Below are positions 9,141-24,276 of a DNA stretch of 64,000 bases, piece by piece; within the stretch, counting starts at the first letter, position 1, and every line of letters begins with the position of its first letter. The stretch lies in the NCBI GenBank assembly GCA_028690035.1, contig JAQVCA010000004.1:186001-250000 (forward strand), written 5' to 3'. A program made the position numbers and the translations under genes. Below the pieces are notes generated by a model. It was not told the DNA's origin, did not search any database, and saw only the letters and a list, made by a program, of their open reading frames with translations. The stretch comes from Comamonas sp. Lineage in GTDB: Bacteria > Pseudomonadota > Gammaproteobacteria > Burkholderiales > Burkholderiaceae_C.

Positions 9141-10109
9141 ATGATTCGCTGCTTTCCGTTTCTCAAGGAAAAGAGCACGGTATTTCAAGGCGCCCACCCG
9201 TTTGCGGTGTCGGAATACGTCAACGAGCATGTCGGCACCCATGGCTTGAGCCTGCGTTTGAACCTGGGCGGCACGGCCGCACTGGCGCACCGCAAGTTTG
9301 GCAACATCGACCTGTGTCGCCTGGCGTATGGCAGCCAGGCGCGCGTGGTTTCCGATCGCCTGCACGACATTTACCACCTGCAGTTCATCCTGCGCGGGCA
9401 GTGCCGCTATGAGCTGGGCCACAGCAGCATCACCTTGCAACCGGGGCAGTTGCTGCTCATCAATCCCGACGATCCCATCGATTTGACCTACTCGGTCGAT
9501 TGCGAAAAATTCATCCTGCGCCTGCCCACCTATCTGCTGCACAACACCTGCGCCGAGCACCAGTGGCAGCAACCGCAAGGCGGCATCCGCTTCAAGCCAG
9601 TGCCTTATCGGGTGGAAGACCTGGAAAGCCTGCTCTACCTGCTCAATCTGGTGTGCCAAGAGGCTGAGTCCGACCTGCTGCAGCCCCAGCTGCTGAACCA
9701 CTACAGCCGCGTCATCGTCACCAAGCTGATGACCATGCTGGACCACAACGTCTCGCTGGAGCAGCCCACGCTGATCGATGTCTCATTCGAGCGCTTGGTG
9801 CATTACATCGAAGAGAACATTAAAAACGACCTGTGCGTGAAAAAACTGGCGCACCAAGCGCACATGAGCACGCGCTCCATTTACCACCTGTTTGAAAAGC
9901 AGGCCAAGACCACGCCCAAGCATTTCATCCGGCAGAAAAAGCTGCAGGCTGTGCATAAGGTGCTGATGGATCCCAGCACGCAGGTGCCTAACATCACGGC
10001 GCTGGCGCTGGAGTACGGCTTCACCCACCTGGGACGCTTTGCCGAGGTGTACCGCGAAACCTTTGGCATGCTGCCCTCGGATGTGCTTAAGCGTCGCCAA
10101 GCACACTGA
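9141..10109 (+). CDS. benR: AraC-family activator, BenR/XylS type
   Basis: Transcriptional activator of benzoate catabolism. From the ATG at 9141 it has 322 residues, almost exactly the length of XylS, and it aligns from the first residues (LKEKSTVFQGAHPFAVSEYVN against the XylS/BenR N-terminus). The effector domain has GNIDLCRLAYG, YHLQFILRG, LLLINPDDPIDLTYS and CEKFILRLP. The AraC double helix-turn-helix lies at about residues 215-320, with ALALEYGFTHLGRFAEVYRE as the second motif. In-frame starts further upstream (TTG 9060, ATG 9072) would extend it without family support. Perfect BenR/XylS operator pairs are present 7 kb away between livK and benA, so that region is its likely target. Benzoate is the expected effector. 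Confidence 0.92.
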   Translation: MIRCFPFLKEKSTVFQGAHPFAVSEYVNEHVGTHGLSLRLNLGGTAALAHRKFGNIDLCRLAYGSQARVVSDRLHDIYHLQFILRGQCRYELGHSSITLQPGQLLLINPDDPIDLTYSVDCEKFILRLPTYLLHNTCAEHQWQQPQGGIRFKPVPYRVEDLESLLYLLNLVCQEAESDLLQPQLLNHYSRVIVTKLMTMLDHNVSLEQPTLIDVSFERLVHYIEENIKNDLCVKKLAHQAHMSTRSIYHLFEKQAKTTPKHFIRQKKLQAVHKVLMDPSTQVPNITALALEYGFTHLGRFAEVYRETFGMLPSDVLKRRQAH

Positions 10110-10141
10110 TCAGTACCAATACTGCAACACTGCAAAATACC

Positions 10142-10185
10142 GCCGCCCGTCATACCCCAAGAGGCATGACGGGCGGCAGTTTTTT
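10142..10185. terminator. Rho-independent terminator after benR-like gene
   Basis: A perfect 12-bp GC-rich stem (GCCGCCCGTCAT at 10142-10153 with its complement at 10166-10177) has a 12-base loop and is followed by six T residues. It lies between converging benR-like and benE genes and could stop plus-strand transcription; the minus-strand side lacks a long T run. Confidence 0.85.
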
Positions 10186-10211
10186 ACCGGGCAGCATGCG
10201 GTTTTTCAGCG

Positions 10212-11372
10212 TCAGCGTCGCTGTGGGCGCAGCAGAAAATGTGCTGCCAGGCCAATCACCACCCCCCAGAATGCCGAGCCCAGCCCCAGCCAGCTCATGC
10301 CCGAGGCGGTGGCGACAAAGGTGATGACAGCAGCCTCGCGCTGATCGGCCTCGCCCATGGCTCCGGCCAGGTTGGCGGCAATCGCTCCCAGCAGCGCCAG
10401 ACCGGCCAGCACGGCAATGAAGACCGAGGGCAGGGCGGCAAACAGTCCGATGATGGCGCCGCTAAAGCAGCCGCCTATTAGATAGAACAGGCCATTGGCG
10501 ATGCCGGCGATGTAGCGCTTGCCTGGGTCGTCGTGCGCCTCTTTACCGGTACACAGAGCGGCGGTGATGGCGGCAATCACGATGGTGATGCCCCCCACCA
10601 GCGCCACACCTAGCGATGCCAGGCTGGTGACGGCCACGATCGGCTTGGCTGGGGTGGGATAGCCCGCGCCGTGCAGGATGGCCATGCCGGGCAAAAACTG
10701 CCCGGTCAGGCTGACCAGTACCAGGGGCAGCGCCAGGCTCAGGATAGCCCCGCCATGCCACTGCGGCGCAATGAAGATCGGCCAAGTGGGTGATAGGTCG
10801 ATGCTGCCCAATGCCAGGCCGCCTGTGCTGACGGCGCTCAGTGCCACCCCGGTGAGCAGCACCAGCACCAGGAAATAGCGCGGAAAGAAACGCTTCCACA
10901 GCAGGTAGGCCAGCAACATGCCAAAGGTGAGCAGTGGCATGCTGGCCGCGGAGCGGAACGCCCCCACGCCAAACTGGAACAGGATGCCCGCCATCATGCC
11001 AAAGGCAATGCCCTTGGGAATGCGGCGCATCAGCCAGTCGAAACTACCCGACAGCCCAATAACCAGCAAGATGAGCGCCGCCACCAGATAGGCCCCCACC
11101 GCTTGGTTCAGGGTGACGTCCGGAAACAGCGTAATGAGCAGCGCCGTGCCCGGGGCCGACCAGGCGGTGATCACCGGCACGCGCAGCCACCAGCTCAGCA
11201 CGATGCCTGAGATGGCTGCGCCCATCGAGATGCCCCAGACCCAGGAAGCCATCATCGCAGGCGAGACCCCGGCCGATTGCCCCGCCTGGAAGAAGATCAA
11301 TAGCGGCCCGGAGTAGGAGATCAAAACGGCCAGAAAACCCGCTGTCAGTGCCGACACCGAGACGTCGCGCAT
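10212..11372 (-). CDS. benE: BenE-family benzoate/proton symporter
   Basis: Inner-membrane transporter of about 386 residues, hydrophobic almost throughout, with about 11-12 predicted membrane helices. It has BenE family features: ITAWSAPGTALL near residues 65-80, GIAFGMMAGILFQFGVGAF, PALPLVLVSLTGQFLPGMAILHGAGYP-like core and the CTGKEAHDDP loop. The ATG at 11372 is used here; a GTG at 11390, one base after the upstream stop, is an equally possible translationally coupled start. It is the last gene of a minus-strand run beginning at livK, so the strain encodes two unrelated benzoate-type uptake systems in one transcription unit. Substrate specificity is inferred from family and context. Confidence 0.88.
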   Translation of the reverse strand: MRDVSVSALTAGFLAVLISYSGPLLIFFQAGQSAGVSPAMMASWVWGISMGAAISGIVLSWWLRVPVITAWSAPGTALLITLFPDVTLNQAVGAYLVAALILLVIGLSGSFDWLMRRIPKGIAFGMMAGILFQFGVGAFRSAASMPLLTFGMLLAYLLWKRFFPRYFLVLVLLTGVALSAVSTGGLALGSIDLSPTWPIFIAPQWHGGAILSLALPLVLVSLTGQFLPGMAILHGAGYPTPAKPIVAVTSLASLGVALVGGITIVIAAITAALCTGKEAHDDPGKRYIAGIANGLFYLIGGCFSGAIIGLFAALPSVFIAVLAGLALLGAIAANLAGAMGEADQREAAVITFVATASGMSWLGLGSAFWGVVIGLAAHFLLRPQRR

Positions 11373-11391
11373 CCAGGATGGGGTTGCCACG

Positions 11392-11838
11392 TCAGGCACC
11401 TGCCGATTTGCGCCGCAGCACCAGAGGGCGCCCGCCGTGGCTGCGCTGCACCAGCCAGGCCGCCAGGGACGAGTCCAGGTGCTGCACGTGGCCGGGGAAC
11501 CAATCCTGTAGTGCCAGCGCCAGCTCGCGACACAGCGCCACATCGCCTTGCAGCAGGGCTTCGCGCACGGCATCGACCGAGGCCAGCACCTTGGCGTGCT
11601 CATCGATGTGGCAGTCGCCCGGTGGAAAGTTGCTGCTGCGCATCCATTCGTCTTCTTCGCCAAAGTGCGCACGCGCATGCGCGGCAAAGGCGTCCAGCGC
11701 GGGCAGCAGTTCGTCGTCGGGCGCTTGCAGCAGGCGTGTCACGCACTCGACAAACTCGCGGTGGGTGTCGTCCATGGTCGAATGCCCGACCAAGAACTCA
11801 TCGTTCCAGACGAAGGATGTGGGCACGGTTATATTCAC
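11392..11838 (-). CDS. Bacteriohemerythrin
   Basis: A 148-residue hemerythrin-type diiron O2-binding protein. Iron ligands are visible in order: His in VGHSTMDDTHREF, His and Glu in HARAHFGEEDEW, and the His pair in CHIDEHAKVL. There is no signal peptide or fused domain, so it is a free cytoplasmic protein. The start is a GTG at 11838 with AGGAG about 7 bases upstream; it overlaps the stop of the preceding HHE gene by GTGA, which indicates translational coupling. It lies between a second hemerythrin-fold gene and benE in the benzoate uptake operon. An O2 storage, delivery or sensing role for the O2-dependent benzoate pathway is inference. Confidence 0.85.
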   Translation of the reverse strand: MNITVPTSFVWNDEFLVGHSTMDDTHREFVECVTRLLQAPDDELLPALDAFAAHARAHFGEEDEWMRSSNFPPGDCHIDEHAKVLASVDAVREALLQGDVALCRELALALQDWFPGHVQHLDSSLAAWLVQRSHGGRPLVLRRKSAGA

Positions 11839-12419
11839 GAAGCAGCTCCTAGGCCCACTGGTGCGGGGGCCATGTTGACAATTTTGGAAAACAGCGCCTC
11901 GTACTCGCCGCGGCGCCCCTGCCAAGGATTGTCGTTCGCCGTGAAGGCTGCTTCAATGATTTTCCAGTCTTCTGGCAGCAGATGTTTGCGTGCCAGCGGA
12001 AACACCTCGTGCTCTTCGGTGTTCATGTGCTGCCACTCATCGGCCACGTAGTTGTTGAGCGCGGCAAAAAAACCGGCAAAGCCCGTATCGCCCACGGCCC
12101 GGTAGTTTTCCAGTGCCGCGCGCAGGGTGTGGATGCGCTGGTGGCCCGCCTGGTGCTCGGTTTCCAGCCGCACCAGGATGGGGTTGGCCTCTGCGGTGCG
12201 CAGGCGCAGGCGCGCAAACAGGTATTCGTTTTCCTTGGGGTGGTGCAGCTTTTCGGGCACCTCCTCCATGTAGCGAATCATGTCGGCGTAGAGACTGAAA
12301 TCGACCTTTATCCGCCCATCGCGAATGCCCATGGCAATGGTGCGCATACCGTTGAGCATGGCCGCCAGCGCACGGTGTTCCTCGTGAATGATGTCCAGCG
12401 CTTTGGCTTGGTGTTGCAT
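11835..12419 (-). CDS. Hemerythrin HHE cation-binding domain protein
   Basis: A 194-residue protein with the hemerythrin-like HHE four-helix fold. Candidate metal ligands are HEEHRAL near residue 12, KLHHPKENEYLF near residue 60, ETEHQAGHQRI near residue 87 and EEHEVFP near residue 137. The motifs are the HHE family type rather than the O2-carrier signature, so it may bind iron for redox, nitric-oxide or oxygen sensing. AGGAG precedes the ATG. It begins 27 bases after the livF stop and overlaps the bacteriohemerythrin gene by four bases. The two hemerythrin-fold genes are thus a coupled pair embedded in the aromatic uptake operon. Confidence 0.85.
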   Translation of the reverse strand: MQHQAKALDIIHEEHRALAAMLNGMRTIAMGIRDGRIKVDFSLYADMIRYMEEVPEKLHHPKENEYLFARLRLRTAEANPILVRLETEHQAGHQRIHTLRAALENYRAVGDTGFAGFFAALNNYVADEWQHMNTEEHEVFPLARKHLLPEDWKIIEAAFTANDNPWQGRRGEYEALFSKIVNMAPAPVGLGAAS

Positions 12420-12446
12420 GTGGATCTCCTTGGTCCGTCGTGCGGC

Positions 12447-13160
12447 TCAGACGCCCAGATGGGTTTGAATCAGGGTGGGGTCGCTTTGCACTTCGGCGCT
12501 GGTGCCGTCAAACACCACCTGGCCCTTCACCAGAATCATGGCCCGGTCGCAGATGCTGGTGACCGCGCCATGGTTTTTATCCACGATCACGGTGGCAATG
12601 CCGGTCTTGCGGATCTCTTTGATGATGCGCCAGATCTCCATGGCAATCAGCGGCGCCAGACCCTCGGTGGCCTCATCCAGAATCAGCAAATCGGGGTTGG
12701 TCATGAGCGCGCGGCCAATAGTGAGCATCTGCTGCTCGCCACCCGAGAGCTGCCAGCCACCGTTGTTGATGCGCTCGCCCAGACGCGGGAAAGTCTCCAT
12801 GACGCGGTCGAACGTCCACTCGCGCCGCCCATCGACACCGGCGCGTGCCGACATCTGCAGGTTTTCGCGCACCGTCAGGCTTTTGAAGATGCCGCGCCCT
12901 TCGGGCACATAGGCAATGCCTTGTTGGGCGATCTGGTAGGTGCGCGCCTTGCTGCGGTCATCGCCACGCACCAGCACGCGGCCATGGCGCGGACGCACCA
13001 CGCCCAGCATGCTCTTGATGAGCGTGGACTTGCCCATGCCGTTGCGCCCCATCAGGGCAATGCCCTCGCCTTCGCGGATATGGAAGTCGATGCCGTGCAG
13101 GATGTGGCTGGCACCGTAGTAGGTGTGGATTTCCTTGGCTTCAAGCAGCATGTTAGACAT
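12447..13160 (-). CDS. livF: Branched-chain-type ABC transporter ATPase LivF
   Basis: A 237-residue ATPase subunit of a LIV/HAAT-type importer. Walker A is GRNGMGKST at about residues 38-46, the Q-loop region is YVPEGRGIF, the signature is LSGGEQQM and Walker B with its following Glu is LLILDEATEGLAP. The end of the H-loop region reads VDKNHGAV rather than the common VEQN. The gene overlaps livG by 8 bases. Together with LivG it should energise the LivHM pore. Placement next to benABCD under shared BenR boxes suggests an aromatic acid such as benzoate as the cargo rather than leucine; this is inference, since LIV-type importers also serve amino acids and amides. Confidence 0.92.
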   Translation of the reverse strand: MSNMLLEAKEIHTYYGASHILHGIDFHIREGEGIALMGRNGMGKSTLIKSMLGVVRPRHGRVLVRGDDRSKARTYQIAQQGIAYVPEGRGIFKSLTVRENLQMSARAGVDGRREWTFDRVMETFPRLGERINNGGWQLSGGEQQMLTIGRALMTNPDLLILDEATEGLAPLIAMEIWRIIKEIRKTGIATVIVDKNHGAVTSICDRAMILVKGQVVFDGTSAEVQSDPTLIQTHLGV

Positions 13161-13929
13161 GGAAACTCTCCTCCGTCCCCAGATAGGCTTGTTGCACGGC
13201 CACGCTGGCCTTGATTTGTGCCGGTGGCCCGCATTCGAGCAACAGACCGTTGACCATTACGGTGATCATGTCGGCCACGGCAAACACGGCGTCCATGTCG
13301 TGCTCGACGAGCAAGATGCCGCGCGTCTGGCGCAGGCGTTTGAGCACTTCCACCATACTCGCCGATTCTTCCGAACCCATGCCTGCCAGCGGCTCATCGA
13401 GTAGCAGCACCTGCGCATCGGTGGCCAGCACCATAGCGATTTCCAGCTGACGCTGCTCGCCGTGGCTGAGCACACCCGACACCCAATCGACGCGTTTGCC
13501 CAGCCCCGCCTCTTCGATGCAGGCGCGTGCTTTTTCCAGCGCCCACTGCTGTTGCATGGCCTTGCTGAAAATGAGCCAGGGCTGCTGGCGGCGCGACTGC
13601 GCGGCCAGGCGCACGTTCTCTAGTACGGTGAACTGGGGGAAGATGTTGGTGCGCTGGTAGCTGCGCCCAATACCCACCTGCGAGCGCTGGGCGGCCGTCA
13701 GGTGCGTGATGTCCTTGCCCATGAACTCGATCTTGCCCTCGCTGGGGGGCAGGTCGCCCGAGAGCATGTTGATGCAGGTCGATTTGCCTGCCCCGTTGGG
13801 GCCCAGCAGCACATGGATCATGCCGCGCTCCAACGTCACATCCAGGTTCTGGTTGGCCACCAGACCGCCAAAGCGGCGCGTCAGTTTGGTCGCTTGCAGC
13901 AGCACCTCTTTGCTTGCGTTTGTGCTCAT
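13153..13929 (-). CDS. livG: Branched-chain-type ABC transporter ATPase LivG
   Basis: A 258-residue ATPase subunit. Walker A is LGPNGAGKST at about residues 42-51, the signature region is LSHGEQRQLEIAM (SHGEQ variant common in LivG), Walker B is VLLLDEPLAGM and the switch region is LVEHDMDAVF. The protein ends with a short C-terminal extension typical of LivG. Both flanks overlap: four bases (ATGA) with livM and eight bases with livF, so the ATPases and permeases are translationally coupled. It acts at the inner face of the membrane with LivF. Confidence 0.92.
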   Translation of the reverse strand: MSTNASKEVLLQATKLTRRFGGLVANQNLDVTLERGMIHVLLGPNGAGKSTCINMLSGDLPPSEGKIEFMGKDITHLTAAQRSQVGIGRSYQRTNIFPQFTVLENVRLAAQSRRQQPWLIFSKAMQQQWALEKARACIEEAGLGKRVDWVSGVLSHGEQRQLEIAMVLATDAQVLLLDEPLAGMGSEESASMVEVLKRLRQTRGILLVEHDMDAVFAVADMITVMVNGLLLECGPPAQIKASVAVQQAYLGTEESFHV

Positions 13930-14897
13930 TTGGCTTCTCCTCCCCCTTGCAGGGCACGCTGGATGCGGCCCGGCACACCGGCCAGACCACCGGGCAGGAA
14001 CAGCACCACACCCACAATCACGCCGCCCATCAGCAGCTGCCAGTATTTGGTCAGGTCGGCAAACACTTCGCGCATGGCTTCAAAAGCAAAGGCCCCGACC
14101 ATAGCGCCGCCCAGGTTGCCCATGCCGCCCAGAATCACCATCAGCAGCACGTTGCCCGACTCGTGCCAGGACAGCAGCTCCGGTGTGACAAAGCCCAGCA
14201 GCACGGCGTACAGAAAACCGGCCAACCCACCCAGCGCACCGGCCAGCGTGAACGCGCCCAGCTTGTAGCGGAAGGTGAAATAGCCCAGCGACTGCATGCG
14301 ATGTTCGTTGCTCTTGATGCCAACCAGCACCCGGCCAAAGGGCGATTGCAGCACGCGCCCCAGGAACAGATACACCAGCACCAGCGTGGCCAAAATGAAG
14401 TAGAACAAATGCACTTCATTGCTCAGGTCGAACGGCTCCCAGCCGAAGATGGACGCCGAGGGCTTGTTGTTCAGGTACATCCCGTCCGAGCCACCGCCCA
14501 GGGGCGTGTCGTGGAAAATGAAGTACGCCATCTGCGCAAAGGCCAGCGTCACCATGATGAAGTAGATGCCCTTGGTGCGCAGCACAAACAGGCCGATCAC
14601 CAGCGCAGCCAGCGCCGACACCGCGACCGAGGCGGGCAGCGCTAGCCACAGGTTGGCCGTTTCATAGCGCACGGTCAGCAGCGCGGCGGCGTAGGCCGCA
14701 ATGCCAAAGTAGGCGGCGTGGCCAAAGCTGACCAGGCCGGTAAAGCCCACCAGCAGGTCCAGACTCATGGCAAAGATGGCCATGATCAGCACCTTGGCGA
14801 TGATCTCGATATAGAACGACTCGCCCGACAGCGGCACGCAGGCAATGGCGGCCAAGGCGATCAGTTTGACGATCAGGGAAGCGTATGTGTTGTTCAT
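13926..14897 (-). CDS. livM: Branched-chain-type ABC transporter permease LivM
   Basis: A 323-residue inner-membrane permease with about 8-10 hydrophobic segments. Family landmarks are SLDLLVGFTGLVSFGHAAYFGIAAY near residues 43-67, the RTKGIYFIMVTLAFAQM segment, GRVLVGIKSNEHRMQSLGY and the EAA-like loop. The start is an ATG four bases after the livH stop. It pairs with LivH to form the pore. The last four bases overlap livG. Confidence 0.92.
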   Translation of the reverse strand: MNNTYASLIVKLIALAAIACVPLSGESFYIEIIAKVLIMAIFAMSLDLLVGFTGLVSFGHAAYFGIAAYAAALLTVRYETANLWLALPASVAVSALAALVIGLFVLRTKGIYFIMVTLAFAQMAYFIFHDTPLGGGSDGMYLNNKPSASIFGWEPFDLSNEVHLFYFILATLVLVYLFLGRVLQSPFGRVLVGIKSNEHRMQSLGYFTFRYKLGAFTLAGALGGLAGFLYAVLLGFVTPELLSWHESGNVLLMVILGGMGNLGGAMVGAFAFEAMREVFADLTKYWQLLMGGVIVGVVLFLPGGLAGVPGRIQRALQGGGEAK

Positions 14898-14901
14898 GGC
14901 G

Positions 14902-15768
14902 TCAAGCTTTCTTCAGGATGCCTTCGGGGCGCCAGAGCAGTACCACGGCCATCACCACATAGACCACGATGCCCGACAGCTCGGGAATCAGCACCTTGCC
15001 GAAGGTGTCGGCAAAACCCACGATCAACGCCGCCACCAGCGCGCCCCAGACCGAACCGATGCCGCCGATGACCACGATCACGAACGAAATGATCAGCACA
15101 TGGCTGCCCATGTTGGGGAACACCGAAGAAATGGGCGCCGCCAGCATGCCCGCCAGCGCGGCCATGGCCACGCCCAGGGCAAACACCACACGGTAGATCA
15201 TGTCGATGTTGATGCCCAGCGACTCGACCATGCCGCGGTCGTCGTTGCCCGCGCGGATCATCATCCCCAGGCGCGTGCGCTGGATCAGGTAGTACAGCGC
15301 CACGGCCAGCACGATGCACACCGCCGAAATGGCCAGGCGATAGACCGGGTAGCTCATCACCTCGGTCAACTGGATCGATGCGTCCAGAAAGGCCGGAATC
15401 GGCACCCCATGCACGTTGTCGCCCACCAGCAGCGCGCGCAACTGTTCAAAAATCAGGATCAGCCCGTAGGTCAGCAGCACCTGCTCCAGGTGGTCGCGCT
15501 TGTACAGGTGAGAAAACAGCGCCCATTCCAGGAAAGCGCCAAAAAGCAAAGCCAGCGGTATGCCCAGCACCACCGCCAGCACCAGACTGCCTGTGGCGCT
15601 GGTGAGTACAAAAGCCAGATAGGCGCCGATCATGTAGAAGCTACCGTGCGCCAGATTGATGATCCCCATGATGCCAAACACCAGCGTCAGCCCGCTTGCC
15701 ACCAGGAAAAGGAGCAAACCGTACTGCAGCGAGTTCAGCGTCTGGATCAGGAAGTTTGCGAAATCCAT
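14902..15768 (-). CDS. livH: Branched-chain-type ABC transporter permease LivH
   Basis: A 288-residue inner-membrane permease with about 8 predicted helices. Landmarks are the N-terminal LNSLQYGLLLFLVASGLTLVFGIMGIINLAHGSFYMIGAY segment, the RAGNDDRGMVESLGINIDMIYRVVFALG loop and the C-terminal GTFGKVLIPELSG-like region. It is separated from livK by 83 bases holding a GC-rich hairpin, and its stop is four bases from the livM start. It forms the pore together with LivM. Confidence 0.92.
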   Translation of the reverse strand: MDFANFLIQTLNSLQYGLLLFLVASGLTLVFGIMGIINLAHGSFYMIGAYLAFVLTSATGSLVLAVVLGIPLALLFGAFLEWALFSHLYKRDHLEQVLLTYGLILIFEQLRALLVGDNVHGVPIPAFLDASIQLTEVMSYPVYRLAISAVCIVLAVALYYLIQRTRLGMMIRAGNDDRGMVESLGINIDMIYRVVFALGVAMAALAGMLAAPISSVFPNMGSHVLIISFVIVVIGGIGSVWGALVAALIVGFADTFGKVLIPELSGIVVYVVMAVVLLWRPEGILKKA

Positions 15769-15780
15769 GACTATCCCCCG

Positions 15781-15804
15781 CCCGGCAGGACAGCGCCTGC
15801 CGGG
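15781..15804. other. Intercistronic hairpin between livK and livH
   Basis: A perfect 9-bp inverted repeat, CCCGGCAGG (15781-15789) and its complement (15796-15804), with a 6-base loop. It has no T run on the minus strand, so it does not look like a full terminator. It may protect livK mRNA or reduce read-through, giving more binding protein than permease, a common arrangement in ABC operons. Confidence 0.6.
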
Positions 15805-15851
15805 ACGACAAAAACTTTAGGTATTAAAGGTGTGGAGAGAAAGCCAGTGGC

Positions 15852-17021
15852 TTACAGCTTGCAGCCGCGTGCCGGGTCTTCCAGCTTGGGCGACACCACT
15901 TCTAGCATGATGTTGCCGCCGCTCTTGACCTGGCGCATGTAGATGTCCTGCACCGGGTTGTGTGCGCGCGACAGGGTGAACTTGCCGCGTGGGCTGTCGA
16001 TGGTGGCCGACTCCATGCCCTTGATGACCTCTTCCTTCTTGGTCGGGTCGCCACCGGCGGCGCGCAGGCCCGCTGCATACATCTGCGCCGCGTCGTAGCC
16101 CTGCATGGCGTACACGTCGGGCTGGATCTTGTGGTTGGTGACGTATTTGGCGCGGAAGGCCACATCCTTGGGATTGGTCAGGCCGTCGGCATAGTGCAGC
16201 GTGGTCAGCAAGCCTTCGCCAGCGGTGCCCATCGCGTCCAGGTTGCCATCGGTCAGGAAGCCGGGGCCATACAGCGGGATGCTGCTCTTGAGGCCTGCAG
16301 CTGCGTAATCGCTGACAAACTTGGCCGCGCCTGCGCCCGCAAAGAAGACAAACACCGCATCGGGCTTGAGCGAGGCAATCTCGGTCAGGAAGGGCTGGAA
16401 CTCCACGTTCGGGAAGGGCAGGGTCATTTCCTTAACCACCTTGCCGCCGCCTTTTTCAAACGCTTCCTTGAAGCCGGCCACCGACTCTTCGCCGAAGGAA
16501 TACTTCCAGGTCACGGTGGCGATGTTCTTCAGCCCCTTCTTGGCCAGTGCCTCGCCCATGGCGTAGGACGGCTGCCAGGCCGAGAACGACGAGCGGAAGA
16601 TGTACGGCGAGCACAGCGAGCCGGTCAGATCGTTGGCGCCCGCATTGGAGACGATCATGATCGTCTTGCTGTCGCGTGCCACCTTGGCCATGGCCATCGC
16701 CACACCCGAGTGGGCGGTGCCGATCAGCACGTCCACCTTCTCGCGCGACACCAGCTTGCGCGCATTCTCGGTGGCCTTGGCCGGGTTGGACTCATCGTCC
16801 ACCACGGCGTACTCCACCTCGCGGCCACCCAGCTTGCCGCCGTTTTCTTCCACGTACTGCTTGAAGCCATTGGTCATGGCGGTGCCCAGCGCGGCGTAGG
16901 TGCCGGTGTAGGGCATCATCAGGCCGACTTTGATCTTGTCGCCTGAGGCATGGGCGCCCCCGGCCAAGCAAGCCAAGGACAGGGTCGTCAATAGCGCAGT
17001 GGTCTTCAGTTTGAATGCCAT
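15852..17021 (-). CDS. livK: Periplasmic substrate-binding protein of LIV-type ABC importer
   Basis: A 389-residue type I periplasmic binding protein. A signal peptide is evident (basic start, hydrophobic core, cleavage near AGGAHA-SGD at about residue 26). The mature part begins with KIKVGLMMPYTGTYAALG, the usual LivK start, followed by NGFKQYVEENGGKLGG, VVDDESNPAKATENARKLV and the lobe-crossing VSNAGANDLTG. Known binding proteins of this subfamily carry amino acids, amides, urea or aromatic acids. AAGGAG lies 7 bases before the ATG. The gene is the first of its operon and is transcribed divergently from benA with paired BenR-type boxes aimed at it, so an aromatic acid ligand is the best guess. 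Confidence 0.9.
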   Translation of the reverse strand: MAFKLKTTALLTTLSLACLAGGAHASGDKIKVGLMMPYTGTYAALGTAMTNGFKQYVEENGGKLGGREVEYAVVDDESNPAKATENARKLVSREKVDVLIGTAHSGVAMAMAKVARDSKTIMIVSNAGANDLTGSLCSPYIFRSSFSAWQPSYAMGEALAKKGLKNIATVTWKYSFGEESVAGFKEAFEKGGGKVVKEMTLPFPNVEFQPFLTEIASLKPDAVFVFFAGAGAAKFVSDYAAAGLKSSIPLYGPGFLTDGNLDAMGTAGEGLLTTLHYADGLTNPKDVAFRAKYVTNHKIQPDVYAMQGYDAAQMYAAGLRAAGGDPTKKEEVIKGMESATIDSPRGKFTLSRAHNPVQDIYMRQVKSGGNIMLEVVSPKLEDPARGCKL

Positions 17022-17059
17022 GGGTGTTGTCTCCTTGAGTAATTTGAAGTAGGCAGCGT

Positions 17060-17065
17060 AGGTTA
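17060..17065 (-). promoter_or_regulatory. Candidate -10 element of livK promoter
   Basis: Reading the minus strand, TAACCT lies 22 bases after the proximal BenR box and about 39 bases upstream of the livK start. This is the same geometry as on the benA side within one base. The match to the sigma70 consensus is weak, as is usual for XylS-family promoters. Confidence 0.5.
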
Positions 17066-17087
17066 GGGGCTAGCCGCCCAGACCGAA

Positions 17088-17124
17088 TATCCATTTCCTG
17101 CACGATCCGTATCCACTTCATGCA
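17088..17124 (-). promoter_or_regulatory. Paired BenR/XylS boxes directed at livK
   Basis: Two perfect matches to the known XylS-family half-site TGCA-N6-GGNTA are read on the minus strand. The distal one is at 17124-17110 (TGCATGAAGTGGATA) and the proximal one at 17102-17088 (TGCAGGAAATGGATA). They are direct repeats with a 22-base period. Orientation and position upstream of livK predict activation of the liv-hemerythrin-benE operon by the BenR-type regulator. Confidence 0.82.
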
Positions 17125-17137
17125 AAACCACAATTTC

Positions 17138-17174
17138 TGCACAGAACGGATATGTATCGTGCAGAAAACGGATA
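17138..17174 (+). promoter_or_regulatory. Paired BenR/XylS boxes directed at benA
   Basis: Two perfect TGCA-N6-GGNTA half-sites lie on the plus strand: 17138-17152 (TGCACAGAACGGATA) and 17160-17174 (TGCAGAAAACGGATA), with a 22-base period. This closely resembles the XylS operator of the TOL Pm promoter. Together with the mirror pair at 17088-17124 it forms a symmetrical divergent control region. Confidence 0.85.
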
Positions 17175-17195
17175 TTTCGACACTTTTACCGCACC

Positions 17196-17201
17196 TAACA
17201 T
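17196..17201 (+). promoter_or_regulatory. Candidate -10 element of benA promoter
   Basis: TAACAT begins 21 bases after the proximal BenR box, the same distance as the -10 element in the TOL Pm promoter. The predicted transcript would begin near 17208, leaving a leader of about 32 bases before the benA ATG. Confidence 0.6.
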
Positions 17202-17239
17202 GGCCGCTCCATTCCACCAAAAACCAGGAGACCGTGACC

Positions 17240-18592
17240 ATGGGCATCACCAAGGAATATCTCGATTCGCTCATCGAGAAAGACAAAGTCAAGGGCAACT
17301 TCCGCTGCAAGCGCGAAATGTTCACCAGCCCGGAATTGTTCGAACTGGAGATGAAGCACATCTTTGAAGGCAACTGGGTGTACCTGGCCCACGAGAGCCA
17401 GCTGCCCAAGATCAACGACTACTACACCACCAAAATTGGTCGTCAGCCAGTCTTTATCACGCGCAACAAGGACAACCAGCTCAACTGCTTCATCAACTCC
17501 TGCGCGCACCGTGGTGCCACGCTCACGCGCTTCAAGCATGGCAACAAAGGCAGCTTCACCTGCCCCTTCCACGGCTGGACATTCAACAACTCGGGCAAGC
17601 TGCTCAAGATCAAAGACCCCACCGACACCGGCTACCCTTCCAGTTTCAATTGCGAAGGCTCGCACGACCTGAAGAAAGTCGCGCGCTTTGAGTCCTACCG
17701 TGGTTTTCTGTTTGCCAGCCTGAACGCCGACGTGCAGCCCCTGGAAGAGTTTCTGGGCGAAGCCAAAGTCATCATCGACATGATCGTGGACCAGTCGCCC
17801 GAAGGCCTGGAAGTGCTGCGCGGCTCTTCTACCTACGTCTATGAAGGCAACTGGAAGCTGCAGGCCGAAAACGGCGCCGACGGCTACCACGTCACCGCCA
17901 CGCACTGGAACTACGCCGCCACGCAAGCGCAGCGCAAGAGCCGCGACAGCGGCGACGACATCAACGCCATGAGCGCCGGTGGCTGGGCCAAAAAGGGCGG
18001 CGGTTCCTACTCGTTCGAGAACGGCCATCTGCTGCTGTGGACACGCTGGGACAACCCCGAAGACCGCCCCCTCATGGAACAGCGCGAACGCCTGGTCAAG
18101 GAATTTGGCGAAGCCAAGGCCGAGTGGATGATCAACAACTCGCGCAACCTGTGCCTGTACCCCAACGTGTACCTGATGGACCAGTTCAGCTCGCAGATCC
18201 GCGTGTTCCGCCCGCTGTCTGTCGACCGCACCGAAGTCACCATCTACTGCATCGCCCCCAAGGGCGAGTCGCCGGAGGCACGCGCGCGCCGCATTCGCCA
18301 GTACGAAGACTTCTTCAACGCCTCGGGCATGGCCACACCGGACGACCTGGAAGAGTTCCGCGCCTGCCAAGAAGGCTTTATGGGCCGTGCGCTGGAGTGG
18401 AACGACATGTCGCGCGGTGCTGAGCACTGGGTCGAAGGCCCCGATGCCGAAGCCGACAAGATCGGCCTCAAGCCCATCCTGTCGGGCGTCAAGACCGAAG
18501 ACGAAGGCCTCTACGTGGCCCAGCACAGCTACTGGCTGGAGCAAATGCGCGCCGCCGCTGCCGCTGAGTCCGACGAACCTGCCGCCAAGTAA
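17240..18592 (+). CDS. benA: Benzoate 1,2-dioxygenase, large (alpha) subunit
   Basis: Catalytic subunit of the Rieske non-heme iron dioxygenase that converts benzoate, O2 and NADH to the cis-1,2-dihydrodiol carboxylate. It has 450 residues, like BenA/XylX. The Rieske cluster ligands are Cys88-x-His90 (SCAHRGATL) and Cys108-x2-His111 (CPFHGWTF). The mononuclear iron histidines are His217 and His222 in [14 protein letters not shown]. The ATG at 17240 follows CAGGAG at 9 bases; the longer upstream frame would run through the operators. benB follows 26 bases later. Toluate or anthranilate oxygenases are close relatives, but the linked BenD, BenE and BenR types favour benzoate. Confidence 0.93.
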
Positions 18593-18618
18593 GCCCAAGC
18601 CCCAAGGAGACCATTGCT

Positions 18619-19107
18619 ATGTCGATTTCTTACGAAAACCTGTGTGCCTTCCTGTACCGCGAAGCCCGCTATCTGGATGAGCGCGATTGGGACAGCTGGC
18701 TGGCCCTGTACGACGAAAACTGCACCTTCTGGGTGCCCGCCTGGGACGACGATGGCGAGCTGACCGAAGACCCGCAAAGCGAAATCTCGCTCATCTGGTA
18801 TGGCCGCCGCGCCGGGCTGGAAGACCGCGTGTTTCGCATCCGCACCGAGCGCTCCAGCGCCACCATTCCCGACACCCGCACCAACCACCACATCAGCAAC
18901 ATCGAGGTGCTGGAGCAGGACGAGAAAACGGTCAAGCTGCGCTTTAACTGGCACACCATGAGCGTGCGCTACAACCACACCGACCACTTCTGCGGCACCA
19001 GCTTCTACACGCTGGACTTGACCTCGGGCCAGCCCATCATCCGTGAGAAGAAGGTGGTGCTCAAGACCGACTACATCCGCCACGTCATCGACGTTTATCA
19101 CATCTAA
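18619..19107 (+). CDS. benB: Benzoate 1,2-dioxygenase, small (beta) subunit
   Basis: A 162-residue beta subunit of the alpha3beta3 oxygenase. The family pattern is clear: N-terminal LCAFLYREARYLDERDWDSWL, the YDENCTFWVPAW strand, ISLIWYGRRAGLEDRVFRIRTERS, the TRTNHHISNIEV stretch and the C-terminal KKVVLKTDYIRHVIDVYHI. AAGGAGA precedes the ATG. It has a structural, fold-stabilising role and no catalytic metal of its own. A 124-base gap to benC follows. Confidence 0.93.
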   Translation: MSISYENLCAFLYREARYLDERDWDSWLALYDENCTFWVPAWDDDGELTEDPQSEISLIWYGRRAGLEDRVFRIRTERSSATIPDTRTNHHISNIEVLEQDEKTVKLRFNWHTMSVRYNHTDHFCGTSFYTLDLTSGQPIIREKKVVLKTDYIRHVIDVYHI

Positions 19108-19231
19108 CCCCTGTCCTAGCGGCACTGTCTGCCGCCGCTTGCGGCCCACGCGCCCACATCCCCAGCCTCGTGCACCTCTTTGTTCTGGGGGGCGTGGTGT
19201 GCGGGCCGCATTTTTTCTGGAGACGACCATC

Positions 19232-20242
19232 ATGACATTCAAGATTGCCCTGAACTTCGAGGACGGCGTCACCCGCTTCATCGACTGCAACGCGACCGAA
19301 ACCGTTGCCGATGCCGCTTACCGCCAGGGCGTCAACGTGCCCATCGACTGCCGCGATGGTGCCTGCGGCGCTTGCAAATGCCAGGCCGAATCGGGCCAAT
19401 ACGAACTGGGCTTCTATATTGAAGACGCCATGAGCGAGGAAGAAGCCCGCTTGGGCCAGGTGCTCACCTGCCAGATGTTCCCCAAGAGCGACTGCGTGGT
19501 GAACGTGCCCGTGTCCTCTGACGTGTGCAAGATCCGGCAAGCCACCCTGAACGCCACCGTCCAAGCCGTGCACCAGCTCTCGCCCAGCACCATCAGCCTG
19601 GTGCTGCAAGGCCCCAGCCTGAACAAACTGTCTTTCCTGCCCGGCCAATACGCCAACCTAGAAGTGCCCGGCACCACCCAAACGCGTGCCTATTCCTTCA
19701 GCTCCATGCCGCACGACGGCAAGGTGAGCTTTCTGATCCGCAACGTGCCCGATGGTCTGATGAGCGGCTACCTCACTGGCCGTGCCCAGCCTGGCGACAC
19801 CATCAAGCTCGCGGGCCCGATTGGTAGTTTTTACCTGCGCGACATCGTGCGCCCCGTGCTGATGCTGGCCGGCGGCACCGGCCTGGCTCCCTTCCTGGCC
19901 ATGCTCGACAAGCTGGTGACACAAGGCGGCGGCAGCCACCCCATCCACTTGATTTACGGCGTGAACACCGATGCCGACGTGGTCGAGCTCGAGCGCCTAG
20001 ACGCCTTCCAGCGTGCGCTGCCCTCGTTCAGCTACACCGTGGTCGTGGTGGCCGACGACAGCCGCTGGCCCAAGAAAGGCTACGTCACCCACCACCTGGA
20101 GCCGGCCCTGCTGCACGATGGCAACGTGGACATCTACCTGTGCGGCCCGCCGCCCATGGTCGAAGCCGTGGCGCAGCACCTGCGCACGCACCAGATCGAG
20201 CCCAAGAGCTTCCACTACGAAAAATTTGCCGCCAGCGTCTGA
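19232..20242 (+). CDS. benC: Benzoate 1,2-dioxygenase electron-transfer reductase
   Basis: A 336-residue reductase that passes electrons from NADH through FAD and a plant-type [2Fe-2S] centre to BenA. The ferredoxin domain is N-terminal: Cys40, Cys45 and Cys48 in CRDGACGACKC, with the fourth Cys in VLTCQMF. The FAD domain follows with RAYSFSSMP, and the NAD domain with LAGGTGLAPFLAML and the C-terminal YLCGPPPMVEAV. This order is that of BenC/XylZ. The ATG at 19232 is preceded by GGAGACG; an earlier in-frame start lies within benB and is rejected. It shares its transcript with benAB and benD. Confidence 0.93.
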   Translation: MTFKIALNFEDGVTRFIDCNATETVADAAYRQGVNVPIDCRDGACGACKCQAESGQYELGFYIEDAMSEEEARLGQVLTCQMFPKSDCVVNVPVSSDVCKIRQATLNATVQAVHQLSPSTISLVLQGPSLNKLSFLPGQYANLEVPGTTQTRAYSFSSMPHDGKVSFLIRNVPDGLMSGYLTGRAQPGDTIKLAGPIGSFYLRDIVRPVLMLAGGTGLAPFLAMLDKLVTQGGGSHPIHLIYGVNTDADVVELERLDAFQRALPSFSYTVVVVADDSRWPKKGYVTHHLEPALLHDGNVDIYLCGPPPMVEAVAQHLRTHQIEPKSFHYEKFAASV

Positions 20243-20280
20243 GCTGCCGACCCGTCCGCCCATCCCCTGAAGGAGCGACT

Positions 20281-21063
20281 ATGAGCAACCGTTTCAAGAA
20301 AAAAGTGGCCGTCATCACCGGTGCCGCACAAGGCATCGGCAAACGCGTGGCCGAAAAAATGGCCAAGGAAAAAGGCACCCTGGTGCTGGTGGACCGTTCG
20401 GAATTGGTGCACGACGTGGCCAAAGACATCGCCAGCAGCACCAAGATGGATGTGCTCAGCCTCACCGCCGACCTGGAAAAATTTGCCGAGTGCCAGCGCG
20501 TCATGGACGCCGCCGTCGATCGCTTTGGCCGTCTGGACATCCTCATCAACAACGTCGGCGGCACCATCTGGACCAAGCCCTTCGAGCACTACGCCGAAGC
20601 CGAGATCGAGGCCGAAGTGCGCCGCTCGCTCTTTCCCACGCTGTGGTGCTGCCGCGCCGCCATCACGCACATGCTGGCCAATGGCAAAGGCAGCATCGTC
20701 AACGTCTCCTCGATCGCCACGCGCGGTGTCAACCGTGTGCCCTACGGCGCGGCCAAGGGCGGCGTCAACGCCCTGACCGCCTGCTTGGCCTTTGAAAACG
20801 GCGAGCGCGGCATCCGCGTCAACGCCACTGCCCCCGGCGCCACCGAAGCCCCCCCGCGCCTGATTCCGCGCAACAGCGCGCAGCAAAGCGAGCAGGAAAA
20901 AGCCTGGTACCAGCAGATCTACACCCAGTCGGTCGACAGCAGCCTGATGAAACGCTACGGCACGCTGGACGAGCAGGCCGACCCGATCCTGTTCCTGGCC
21001 TCGGACGATGCCTCCTACATCACCGGCACGGTGCTGCCCGTGGGCGGGGGCGACCAGGGCTGA
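20281..21063 (+). CDS. benD: cis-1,2-dihydroxycyclohexa-3,5-diene-1-carboxylate dehydrogenase
   Basis: A 260-residue SDR that oxidises and decarboxylates the benzoate dihydrodiol to catechol with NAD+. The cofactor motif TGAAQGIG is at residues 14-21, NNVGG follows, and the active site has Ser in VNVSSIATR and Tyr-x3-Lys in YGAAKGGVN. The tail LPVGGGDQG matches BenD/XylL. AAGGAG lies 5 bases before the ATG. It completes benABCD; the product catechol would enter the meta operon at 1-6713 once ring-cleaved by a dioxygenase not seen here. A strong hairpin with T-rich tail begins 30 bases after the stop. Confidence 0.93.
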   Translation: MSNRFKKKVAVITGAAQGIGKRVAEKMAKEKGTLVLVDRSELVHDVAKDIASSTKMDVLSLTADLEKFAECQRVMDAAVDRFGRLDILINNVGGTIWTKPFEHYAEAEIEAEVRRSLFPTLWCCRAAITHMLANGKGSIVNVSSIATRGVNRVPYGAAKGGVNALTACLAFENGERGIRVNATAPGATEAPPRLIPRNSAQQSEQEKAWYQQIYTQSVDSSLMKRYGTLDEQADPILFLASDDASYITGTVLPVGGGDQG

Positions 21064-21094
21064 ACCGCGCAGGGCCAGAGGGTGGGCGCTCTTA

Positions 21095-21186
21095 ATAAAA
21101 GAGCTGCTGACGCTGATTAAAAAAGGGTTTCAGGTGCTTTTGTGCCTGAAACCCTTTGTTTATGGGCGGGAGCAGCTATTTTTATC
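21095..21186 (+). terminator. Interspersed repeat copy 2, acting as terminator of benABCD
   Basis: The core is a perfect 13-bp stem, AAAGGGTTTCAGG (21122-21134) with its complement (21145-21157) around a 10-base loop, followed by TTTGTTT. The outer ends carry GAGCTGCTG and AGCAGCTATTTTTAT. It is more than 85 percent identical by eye to the copy at 26283-26373. Confidence 0.8.
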
Positions 21187-21629
21187 ATTGTCCTGGCGCT
21201 CAGCTTCGTATTGCTGGTCGCGGGCGCGGTGCAGCTGGCGATCCCTGCTGCAGCCCTTGGGCACAGCCCTGTGCGCGACAGGATAGCAGGACAAAAAACG
21301 GGTTTTTTGTGCCCAGTGCTCAGAGCGCCGCAGCAGGTTGTTTGCCATCCAGCACCAGTTCTGTATGGGACTGTGCTAAAGCGTGGATGTATAAATTTTT
21401 TTGCGCTGAAAAAAGCCTTTTTGCTTGATTCTTCAGAGATTGCATCTTTGTGCGCTGGATGTGTGCGCTGCGTCTGTGTGGGGTGTGGCGGTTGTGGCAC
21501 TCTGGGGGCTGCAGGGTGCGCCATGGCGAGCCACGAAAACGGTGCTCCACCGAGGCCTGTGTGGCTGGCGCGCCAAACCGGCATACGATTGGCCAGCGGG
21601 TTTCCCGTGGTTTTTACGGACAACATAGC
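21187..21629. other. Non-coding stretch upstream of TauD-like dioxygenase gene
   Basis: About 440 bases without a credible gene. A plus-strand open frame (21142-21633) begins inside the repeat hairpin and encodes Cys/Gly-rich sequence with no family character; it is treated as spurious. An AT-rich perfect 9-bp hairpin (ACAAAAAAC at 21291-21299, complement at 21302-21310) is the only marked structure. The promoter of the next gene must lie here. Confidence 0.6.
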
Positions 21630-22625
21630 GTGAGCATCATTCTTCAAACTCCCCTGACCGGTAACGCTGCATGGCGCGGCGAAGACTTGGCCGGTGATAC
21701 CTCTTGGATTCACCATCTCAGCGCCGAAAGCATCCGCGCGCTGGATGCGGCACTGGCGCATGTGAAGTCGCTGGGCCTGAGCTTTCCTGATTTCGAGCAA
21801 GAGCATTTCCCGCTGCCCGAGGCCCTGCGCGCCGAACTGGCCCAGCAGGCCGATGCGCTGGAAAACGGTCTGGGCTTTATCGTGCTGCGTGGCCTGCCGG
21901 TGGAGCGCTACACCGAAGACGAGATCAACACCCTGTACTACGGCGTGGGCCTGCACCTGGGCCAGCCCGTGCGCCAGAACCCGCGCGGCGATGTGCTCGG
22001 TCTGGTGATGAATGTGGGCGACAAGTCGCTCAAAACCACCCGCGTGTACGAAACCAACAACTACCTGCCCTACCACACCGACCCGTCGGACGTGGTGGGC
22101 CTGCTGTGCGTGCGCAAAGCCAAGGAAGGCGGCCTGTCCAGCCTGGTGAGCGTGGGCGCGGTGTACAACGAAATTTTGCGCACCCACCCCGAGCTGCTGG
22201 GCCTGTACTACCGCCAGTGGTACTGCGCCCACCTGTGCGAGCAAGGCACAGAGCCGGGTTTGACCCCCATCTTCAGCTACCACCAGGGCAAGCTGACCTG
22301 CCGCTATCTGCGCCAGTACTTTGAGCTGGGCCACGAGATGAAGAACCTGCCCCTGACGCCCGTGGAAGTGCAGGCGCTGGATGTGTTTGACCAAGCCATG
22401 TATGCGCCCGGCCTGCGTCTGGACATGATGCTCGAACCCGGCGACATGCAGTTTGCCAACAACTACGCGGTGCTGCACTCGCGCAATGGCTTTGAAGACC
22501 ACGACGAACCCGCGCTGCGCCGCAAGCTGCTGCGCCTGTGGCTGAAGATGCCCAACGCACGCGAGCTGGCGCCCGAGTTCCCGGGCCGCAACGGCTTTCC
22601 CAAGCAGGTGGCCGTCGCCGCCTAA
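21630..22625 (+). CDS. TauD/TfdA-family Fe(II)/2-oxoglutarate dioxygenase
   Basis: A cytosolic non-heme iron oxygenase of about 331 residues that would couple 2-oxoglutarate decarboxylation to substrate hydroxylation. The metal site is visible as the His-x-Asp of YHTDPSDVVG and the distal His of NYAVLHSRNGF, with the 2-oxoglutarate-binding Arg in the following LRRKLLRLWL. The best start is a GTG at 21630; upstream in-frame ATGs add Cys/Trp-rich sequence without family support, and no strong ribosome site helps decide. It stands alone between the ben operon terminator and the converging CysB-type regulator gene. Nearby SsuD suggests sulfonate metabolism, but the sequence is closer to the general TauD-like group than to true TauD, so the substrate is unknown. 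Confidence 0.8.
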   Translation: MSIILQTPLTGNAAWRGEDLAGDTSWIHHLSAESIRALDAALAHVKSLGLSFPDFEQEHFPLPEALRAELAQQADALENGLGFIVLRGLPVERYTEDEINTLYYGVGLHLGQPVRQNPRGDVLGLVMNVGDKSLKTTRVYETNNYLPYHTDPSDVVGLLCVRKAKEGGLSSLVSVGAVYNEILRTHPELLGLYYRQWYCAHLCEQGTEPGLTPIFSYHQGKLTCRYLRQYFELGHEMKNLPLTPVEVQALDVFDQAMYAPGLRLDMMLEPGDMQFANNYAVLHSRNGFEDHDEPALRRKLLRLWLKMPNARELAPEFPGRNGFPKQVAVAA

Positions 22626-22668
22626 GGCGCGCAAAGAGCCCAATCCCCCTCAAGAGGCGCTCGCCGCG

Positions 22669-23604
22669 TTATGCGTCGTGCGCCTCTTGCAGTTTTTGCC
22701 GCACCACATCCTTGGTCAGCGTGGGCACAAAGCTTTCGATGAAGTCGTAGGCGTAGTCGCGCAGCAGCACGCCCCGGCGCACGGCGATGCGCGTGAGGTT
22801 GATCTCAAACAGGTGGCGGGCATCGATGGCGCTGAGCAGCCGGTCGCGCTCGGGATCGAACGCGATGGAGGCAACGATGCCAATGCCCATGTCCAGCTCG
22901 ACATAGGTTTTGATGACGTCGGCATCCATGGCGGTGAGCACGATGTTGGGCACCAGACCCTCGCGCCCAAAGGCTTCGTCGATGTGCGCGCGGCCAGTGA
23001 AGCCGTGCTCGTAGGTGATGATGGGGTAATGCGTCAGGTCTTCCAGCGAAATCGGCGCCTCTCGGTGCAGCAGCGGGTGGCCCGGCGGCACGATGACGCT
23101 GTGCGACCAGCGGTAGCCGGGCAAAGACAGCAGCCGCTCGTAGTTGGCCAGCGCTTCGGTGGCCACGCCAATATCGGCTTCGCCACAGAGCAGCATGTCG
23201 GCAATCTGCTGGGGCGAGCCTTGGCGCAAATGCAGCGTCACGCCCGGGTACATCTGCCGAAAATCGCGCACCACGGCCGGCAGCGCATAGCGCGCTTGCG
23301 AGTGTGTGGCGGCCACAAACAGCGTGCCCGAGTCTTTCTCGGTGAAATCGCGGCCCGCGTTCTTGAGGTTGTCCGCCTCCAGCAGCAGGCGCTCGATCAG
23401 GGGTAGCAGCGTCTGCCCCGGTGAGGTCAGGCCCGTGAGGCGCTTGCCTACGCGGGTGAAAATTTCCACGCCCAGCTCTTCTTCCAACTCACGAATCTGG
23501 CGGCTGATGGACGGTTGGGAAATGAACAGCAGCGCCGCCACTTCGGTCAGGTTGAACTGATGGCGCGCCGCTTCGCGGATGGAGCGCAGTTGCTGGAAAT
23601 TCAT
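22669..23604 (-). CDS. LysR-family regulator, CysB/Cbl/SsuR type
   Basis: A 311-residue LysR-type regulator. The N-terminal helix-turn-helix covers residues 1-60 (MNFQQLRSIREAARHQFNLT, AALLFISQPSISRQIRELEEELG), and its wording is specific to the CysB/Cbl subgroup. The effector domain has VAATHSQARYALP and HPLL, typical of proteins that sense sulfate, adenosyl phosphosulfate or O-acetylserine. The ATG at 23604 lies four bases after the VOC gene stop, so the two form a coupled pair. It is divergent from ssuD and probably controls sulfonate use under sulfate limitation. The effector is inferred from subgroup membership. Confidence 0.88.
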   Translation of the reverse strand: MNFQQLRSIREAARHQFNLTEVAALLFISQPSISRQIRELEEELGVEIFTRVGKRLTGLTSPGQTLLPLIERLLLEADNLKNAGRDFTEKDSGTLFVAATHSQARYALPAVVRDFRQMYPGVTLHLRQGSPQQIADMLLCGEADIGVATEALANYERLLSLPGYRWSHSVIVPPGHPLLHREAPISLEDLTHYPIITYEHGFTGRAHIDEAFGREGLVPNIVLTAMDADVIKTYVELDMGIGIVASIAFDPERDRLLSAIDARHLFEINLTRIAVRRGVLLRDYAYDFIESFVPTLTKDVVRQKLQEAHDA

Positions 23605-23608
23605 GGCG

Positions 23609-23974
23609 TCAATGGCTTTCGAGAAATTCCAGCTGATGGCCCGCAGGGTCTTTGACATACACCTGCTGCGCCTGCAATCCGGTGGACGACGGCTGGGTGG
23701 CAATGAAATGCCAACCAAATGCCTGAAAACGATTTTTCAAATCGTCGATGCCCTGAACATTGAACGCCACATGCTGGCAGGCGCTGCGCGGGGCAGGGCT
23801 TGCAGCCGGGCTAAAGCACAGCAGCTGCTCGCCCACGGCAAATTGCAGCAGCTGGCGCTGGTGTGGCACGGGCAGTTCCTGTGCGCCCAAAACGGTGCTG
23901 TAAAAAAAGCGCAAGTCTTCGGTGGACTGGGCCGGAAACTGCAATTGGATATGGTGAACCGAGGTGATGCGCAT
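23609..23974 (-). CDS. VOC-superfamily (glyoxalase/dioxygenase-like) protein
   Basis: A 121-residue single-unit vicinal-oxygen-chelate protein with the beta-alpha-beta-beta-beta repeat pattern. Candidate metal ligands are His7 or His8 in SVHHIQL, His in CQHVAFNV and the C-terminal Glu in HQLEFLE. It would work as a dimer. It is translated just ahead of the CysB-type regulator and divergent from ssuD. It could be a lyase or isomerase that handles an aldehyde released from sulfonates, but its reaction cannot be read from sequence. Confidence 0.8.
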   Translation of the reverse strand: MRITSVHHIQLQFPAQSTEDLRFFYSTVLGAQELPVPHQRQLLQFAVGEQLLCFSPAASPAPRSACQHVAFNVQGIDDLKNRFQAFGWHFIATQPSSTGLQAQQVYVKDPAGHQLEFLESH

Positions 23975-24276
23975 GCCTGAAAAATACTTTTCAGCACCAG
24001 GGGAGGGCTTGGTCTGAAAAGCGGAGTTGTTGTTATGGCGCGTTTATAAGCAGAGTGCTTTATAAGAACAATGACTTTTTTATTGATTTCAAATAACCAA
24101 AATATATTTGAAGGTACTGGCAAGCCCACCACACCCTTGCACAGCACAAGCGCAAAAAACGCATAAGCACCTGCACTTTCCCGCCTTCCTGCAGGTCGCG
24201 GCCAACGCCTGTAATGGCGGCATGCAGGCACCAGCGTGCCTTGCTGCCCCCATTGATCCATTGCGAGGAATTTGCC
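23975..24276. promoter_or_regulatory. Divergent control region of VOC-LysR and ssuD
   Basis: 302 bases, AT-rich in the middle. Two exact direct repeats TTTATAAG (24043-24050 and 24059-24066) lie 16 bases apart and are followed by an AT tract to about 24110. This is a plausible binding area for the adjacent CysB-type regulator. No gene is seen; a plus-strand frame here reads as non-coding. Confidence 0.45.

Follow-up and report, generated by a model that had tools for sequence, protein, structure and literature searches.

The closest described counterparts of the element reported here are the XylS-activated Pm promoter of the TOL plasmid pWW0, the BenR-activated Pben promoter of Pseudomonas and a predicted two-way BenR region. 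In the available text of PMC5481539, two XylS monomers occupy the direct repeats of Pm, bend the DNA and contact RNA polymerase, and Pm is read by polymerase carrying sigma-32 or sigma-38. The available portion of PMC1360089 reports that BenR is needed for induction in Pseudomonas fluorescens and gives a 5-bp spacer for strain MB214. In two Rhodocyclales, Thauera sp. MZ1T and Dechloromonas aromatica RCB, BenR was predicted in 2019 to control benABCD together with a divergent operon that holds a benzoate ATP-binding cassette (ABC) transporter and a hemerythrin-like COG3945 gene (PMC6449761, Suvorova and Gelfand 2019, accessible part); the uptake role of such transporters is given there as predicted, not demonstrated. 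Because of that prediction, joint BenR control of benABCD and a transporter operon is not a new idea. Here we describe an 87-bp element between livK and benA in a Comamonas sp. (GenBank assembly GCA_028690035.1, contig JAQVCA010000004.1), within a stretch of 64,000 nucleotides that we call the window and to which positions refer. Two Pm-type operators lie back to back in it, one facing benABCD and the other livKHMGF-HHE-hemerythrin-benE, each with a conserved -10-like hexamer. We put at roughly 0.85 the probability that BenR activates transcription in both directions from this region and so couples the import of benzoate to its oxidation.

The first-pass annotation had read four perfect TGCA-N6-GGNTA half-sites within the 87 bp, and these are borne out to the base. 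Two lie on the plus strand and point at benA (TGCACAGAACGGATA, distal, 17138..17152; TGCAGAAAACGGATA, proximal, 17160..17174). Two lie on the minus strand and point at livK (TGCATGAAGTGGATA, distal, 17110..17124; TGCAGGAAATGGATA, proximal, 17088..17102), and a 13-bp gap (17125..17137) separates the pairs. Each pair is a direct repeat with a period of 22 bp, as was also claimed, and its proximal site occupies the -35 position. The -10-like hexamers fall where they had been placed: TAACAT (17196..17201, plus strand) 21 bp past the benA-proximal site and TAACCT (17060..17065, minus strand) 22 bp past the livK-proximal site. The likeness to Pm that was drawn from this layout is sound for the -10 distance (21 bp in Pm). 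The period departs from it, being 21 bp in Pm of pWW0 and 22 bp here, although 21 bp is not a strict requirement of a Pm-like pair. The two systems share the direct TGCA-N6-GGNTA repeat and a regulator with about 50% identity, whereas Pm has one pair facing one direction and the Comamonas region has two mirrored pairs. The C residues just before the -10 element are kept in both mirrored promoters, as in Pm, and by analogy we infer that both would share the sigma preference of Pm.

The mirrored arrangement recurs in other species. We scanned about 85,000 genomes for two complete sites plus the TGCA box of another, allowing a centre of 3 to 33 bp, and obtained 54 stretches. Nineteen other loci among them carry the full set of four sites (the quad, at most one mismatch per site) adjoining benA: seven in Thauera, three in Zoogloea, two in Dechloromonas, and one each in Azoarcus, Azonexaceae, Zoogloeaceae, a betaproteobacterial metagenome-assembled genome (MAG), an Oxalobacteraceae MAG, Comamonas denitrificans and Marinobacterium. 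Another 33 stretches were taken as chance, with no ben gene in the DNA fetched (as short as 565 bases in one case), and two (L047 and L078) were set aside from both groups.

Geometry was measured in 21 mirrored loci, namely the window, 18 of the 19 quad loci (without that of Marinobacterium, L074, which has different spacers) and two further loci from the family of Thauera sp. 28. In all 21, both pairs have a 22-bp period, with 7 bp between the repeats. Between the pairs lie 13 bp in 18 loci, and 11, 12 and 14 bp in one locus each. The length of this central gap is thus mostly kept and its sequence is not: in nine dereplicated loci, all picked from those with a 13-bp centre, the gap has a mean identity of 28%, versus 95 to 100% at the core site positions (identical throughout in the benA-proximal site, 95% in the livK-proximal one). 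The benA-side -10 element reads TANNAT in every locus measured, and that on the livK side reads TAATCT or TAACCT, 21 to 22 bp from its site, in 20 of the 21 (L068 departs). Furthermore, every one of the 20 genomes searched has a benR-like gene: those of the 19 quad loci apart from L069 (18 genomes), and those of L047 and L078. The recurrence of the mirrored operator, of both -10 elements and of a benR-like gene supports the earlier proposal that one BenR/XylS-type activator serves both directions. The operator is real and very probably functional, and represents a known scheme of regulation in a conserved variant form.

Three of the scan stretches differ from this pattern. In Marinobacterium (L074, 1471-1522), a mirrored quad with spacers of 6, 12 and 5 lies between livK and a benA-containing cluster. 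That genome has a BenR-like gene of 37% identity and a BenA outside the mirrored clade, and its quad may therefore be of independent origin. The benA promoter of Pseudomonas sp. SJZ079 (L047, 2865-2908) has a forward pair of period 22 with a perfect reverse half-site 3 bp upstream, possibly a half-way form. In Oceanobacter mangrovi (L078), homologues of livKHMGF lie together with benE and a partial BenR-like match, and the 8 kb fetched contain no benA.

In the mechanism that we favour, benzoate-bound BenR, encoded by the gene at 9141, would sit as a dimer on each direct-repeat pair at the -35 position. It would recruit RNA polymerase to both promoters and thereby turn on ring oxidation at the same time as import, the latter through BenE and the ABC importer. 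Several observations weigh against this mechanism. The period is 22 bp in all 21 mirrored loci, versus 21 bp in Pm and in 27 of 29 forward pairs before Pseudomonas benA (22 in the other two), a departure from the XylS model. The 83 bp between livK and livH leave room for another promoter. Terminator-like sites, which are consensus matches only, number 20 in 8750-21600 versus 11.5 in shuffles, and several of them lie on the minus strand within the liv run. Moreover, benE belongs to the run in this genome and in C. denitrificans, and was seen in it nowhere else. In several relatives, livK is preceded by catechol 2,3-dioxygenase and further genes, and there the minus promoter would not primarily be that of livK.

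The most probable alternative, which we regard as less likely than not, is that the four sites form one cooperative unit, in which two BenR dimers touch across the 13-bp centre, both promoters fire together and the ratio of import to oxidation is locked. The near-constant gap length despite its divergent sequence favours it, and so does the more variable benA leader, whose length has seven different values between 60 and 72 bp across these 21 loci. The value of 72, in L033, is probably a wrong start choice; with an earlier start it becomes 63, so that six values between 60 and 66 remain and the contrast shrinks. The centre length is thus kept somewhat more tightly than the neighbouring leader, and shared descent may explain part of this, the loci belonging mostly to one clade. 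Avoidance of a clash between polymerases could also hold the length constant, and the spacers of the Marinobacterium quad differ. To our knowledge, no structure of a BenR tetramer exists.

In a further reading, the benA-facing pair alone would be a working activator site. The livK-facing pair would then assist the benA promoter from upstream or act as a decoy for it, and livK would be read from a different promoter. Pseudomonas offers a precedent of sorts. Among its 30 benA loci (of 31 matches), 29 have the forward pair (at most one mismatch per site) that Pben shares with the Comamonas region, one has a single site, and the mirrored pair occurs at none; single reverse sites were found at three (perfect in L147, one mismatch each in L160 and L165). 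Upstream sites could also raise the local concentration of BenR. However, a helper site would need no -10 element, and the livK side keeps its own at all measured loci except L068. A consensus scan found no sigma-70-like promoter in 10.2-17.3 kb from which livK could otherwise be read, though the same scan misses the benA promoter too. We consider the helper explanation unlikely.

The candidate activator is the benR-like AraC/XylS regulator at 9141..10109 (plus strand), convergent with benE. It has an AraC-type ligand domain and a helix-turn-helix domain (Pfam AraC_binding_2 and HTH_18), and close kinship to XylS and BenR. It is about 50% identical to plasmid XylS proteins over 90% of its length and 56 to 61% identical to its aligned counterparts in Thauera, Dechloromonas and Zoogloea. 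Could a different AraC-type or LysR-type protein act at the operator instead? The gene lies 7 kb from the operator, and the best NCBIfam match of its product is AndR, at 115 bits under a cut-off of 350. On the other side, the best plasmid-borne relatives of the protein are XylS, the gene ends the same cluster here and in C. denitrificans, and benR lies past benD in the mapped Thauera, Dechloromonas and Zoogloea loci; another regulator is thus improbable. A window scan found no perfect half-site near the regulator gene. In two relatives (L095 and L096), the BenR match spans one stop codon and perhaps overruns the true start.

Perfect half-sites number five in the window, against a shuffle mean of 1.52 (at least five were reached in 1 of 100 shuffles), and 72 in the whole genome (2,915,786 bases, 22 contigs), against 24 for a reversed control pattern. 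Apart from the operator, no two perfect sites in the genome come closer to each other than about 680 bases. Tandem pairs of 22-bp period with up to three mismatches occur 17 times, and only the two described here have none; the 15 others, considered as further BenR targets genome-wide, all have at least two. Chance clustering of a loose motif with eight fixed bases and 72 perfect matches in the genome can be rejected outright, given a Poisson expectation of about 1e-7 per genome for four perfect sites within 87 bp, the lack of any other perfect 22-bp pair in the genome, and the recurrence of the arrangement at this position in other species. The fifth perfect half-site in the window (60771-60785, minus strand) has a degenerate partner at a 21-bp period, with two mismatches in all, and is the single match of a search of the window with that period.

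The mirrored quad is narrowly distributed. Within the genus, it was found in 3 of 53 genomes (at most three mismatches, fixed 13-bp centre): this genome, G1132, with one mismatch, and a third with an operator that matches the C. denitrificans one. The same fixed pattern occurred in 1 of 399 genomes of the order, this one, many of those genomes having no benA. At 29 other benA loci of the same family (29 of 38 other matches) there was no quad; at five of them, one or two isolated sites, each with a single mismatch, lie within 500 bp. By comparison, 7 of 19 benA loci in the family of Thauera sp. 28 (G786) carry it, five of which were already in the scan set. Among the 12 without it, three (L124, L127 and L131) have a single site with one mismatch and one (L134) has what may be a degraded forward pair.

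We built a quick BenA tree of 98 rows, leaving out L061 and L065, in which BenA is cut. All mirrored loci except Marinobacterium fall into one group of 25 (Shimodaira-Hasegawa-like approximate likelihood ratio test, SH-aLRT, 88). BenA of the window sits beside that of C. denitrificans in a nested group of 17 rows, most of them from Thauera and Azoarcus (SH-aLRT 97), which suggests that the Comamonas locus was laterally acquired from a Thauera-like donor. The first-pass annotation had called a symmetrical BenR region unusual. This holds in that the form is rare among the genomes sampled in the order and absent from the Pseudomonas loci sampled. One BenA clade, however, has it as its regular form, and joint control was predicted in 2019.

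What the livK-facing promoter would read varies among relatives. The divergent operon carries livK in all six relatives mapped. In C. denitrificans and G1132, livK comes first after the operator, as here. In Thauera sp. 28 and a Zoogloea, catechol 2,3-dioxygenase is first and livK second. In Dechloromonas hankyongensis and Thauera aminoaromatica, several genes precede livK, including homologues of ferredoxin, catechol 2,3-dioxygenase and semialdehyde dehydrogenase. The HHE gene follows livF in all four mapped loci that reach past livF (L135, L136, L139 and L140). In C. denitrificans (L076, 1545-2630), a gene that appears porin-like by eye lies between benC and benD.

The substrate of the importer can be approached through its binding protein. 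The Comamonas LivK is 52% identical to RPA0668 of Rhodopseudomonas palustris, a binder of benzoate and 4-hydroxybenzoate, and has the same fold; 4EVQ is its best match by both sequence and fold, which makes proven aromatic-acid binders its nearest relatives. We also considered a branched-chain amino acid importer. The NCBIfam branched-chain model gives LivK 76 bits against a cut-off of 477, and the sequence evidence points to aromatic acids, which leaves a branched-chain importer as the less likely reading. The importer would thus carry benzoate or a close aromatic acid, in line with the first-pass view of it as an aromatic-acid transporter, for which the kinship of LivK to RPA0668 and the presence of benE in the same minus-strand run both speak. 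The HbaE/RPA0668 importer differs in its setting: according to the available text of PMC3223731, its genes lie between the bad and hba operons of anaerobic degradation, whereas the Comamonas genes lie beside those of the ben dioxygenase.

On the plus strand, benA, encoding the benzoate 1,2-dioxygenase large subunit (17240..18592; TIGR03229, 888 bits, cut-off 781), is followed by benB (18619..19107; TIGR03232, 278 bits, cut-off 226), benC (19229..20242, with its start inside this frame; NF040810, 534 bits, cut-off 430) and benD (20275..21063; NF040811, 442 bits, cut-off 380). On the minus strand, livK (15852..17021) encodes a solute-binding protein, by homology a probable binder of benzoate or hydroxybenzoate. 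It is followed by the permease genes livH (14902..15768) and livM (13926..14897), both PF02653, and the ATPase genes livG (13153..13929) and livF (12447..13160), both PF00005. Then come a hemerythrin HHE gene (11835..12419; PF01814), a second hemerythrin-like gene (11392..11838; named by eye, its GTG start overlapping the stop of the preceding gene) and benE, a benzoate membrane transport protein gene (10212..11390; PF03594, E 3.8e-142) that starts at either GTG 11390 or ATG 11372. From livK to benE, the successive genes are separated by 83 bp and 4 bp, overlap twice, are 27 bp apart, overlap again and, if benE starts at the GTG, are 1 bp apart. Such spacing makes a single transcript likely. 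The two hemerythrin-like genes (11392-12419) stand between the ABC importer and benE; the accessible part of PMC6449761 suggests protection or oxygen handling for such a gene.

Past benD, 21450-25422 holds what looks by eye like a sulfonate-type cluster (a TauD-like dioxygenase, a LysR-type regulator and an SsuD-like monooxygenase), in which no perfect BenR half-site was found. To the left of the window (L093, G000:C11:168001-187000), and reaching up to it, lies what by eye resembles a phenol hydroxylase operon with a regulator of the DmpR type and a pathway for meta-cleavage; the names of the meta-pathway genes rest on this inspection. Since the sole catechol 2,3-dioxygenase match to an L033 query (C11:181690-182613) sits in that apparent phenol hydroxylase/meta-cleavage cluster, catechol derived from benzoate probably enters the meta-cleavage route there.

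Like the BenR divergon of PMC6449761 (as far as its accessible part describes it), the Comamonas locus has benABCD divergent from an operon of ABC transporter and hemerythrin genes with BenR sites between them, a match made by the HHE domain and not by COG number. The operon described there also holds COG4231 and aph genes, whereas here livK comes first and benE is in the run. That paper is the only report close to a two-way BenR region that we found in the open-licence literature, and we found no description there of the mirror geometry. New here are the mirrored arrangement and its kept centre, the almost complete restriction of this arrangement to a single BenA clade among our samples, and the first position of livK in Comamonas.

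With livK directly after a textbook BenR operator and benE in the same run, the Comamonas locus is a clean place to test the coupling of benzoate import to oxidation. The kept centre makes it easy to test whether dimers of XylS-family proteins act cooperatively across two promoters. The 87-bp element could also serve as a compact two-way benzoate switch.
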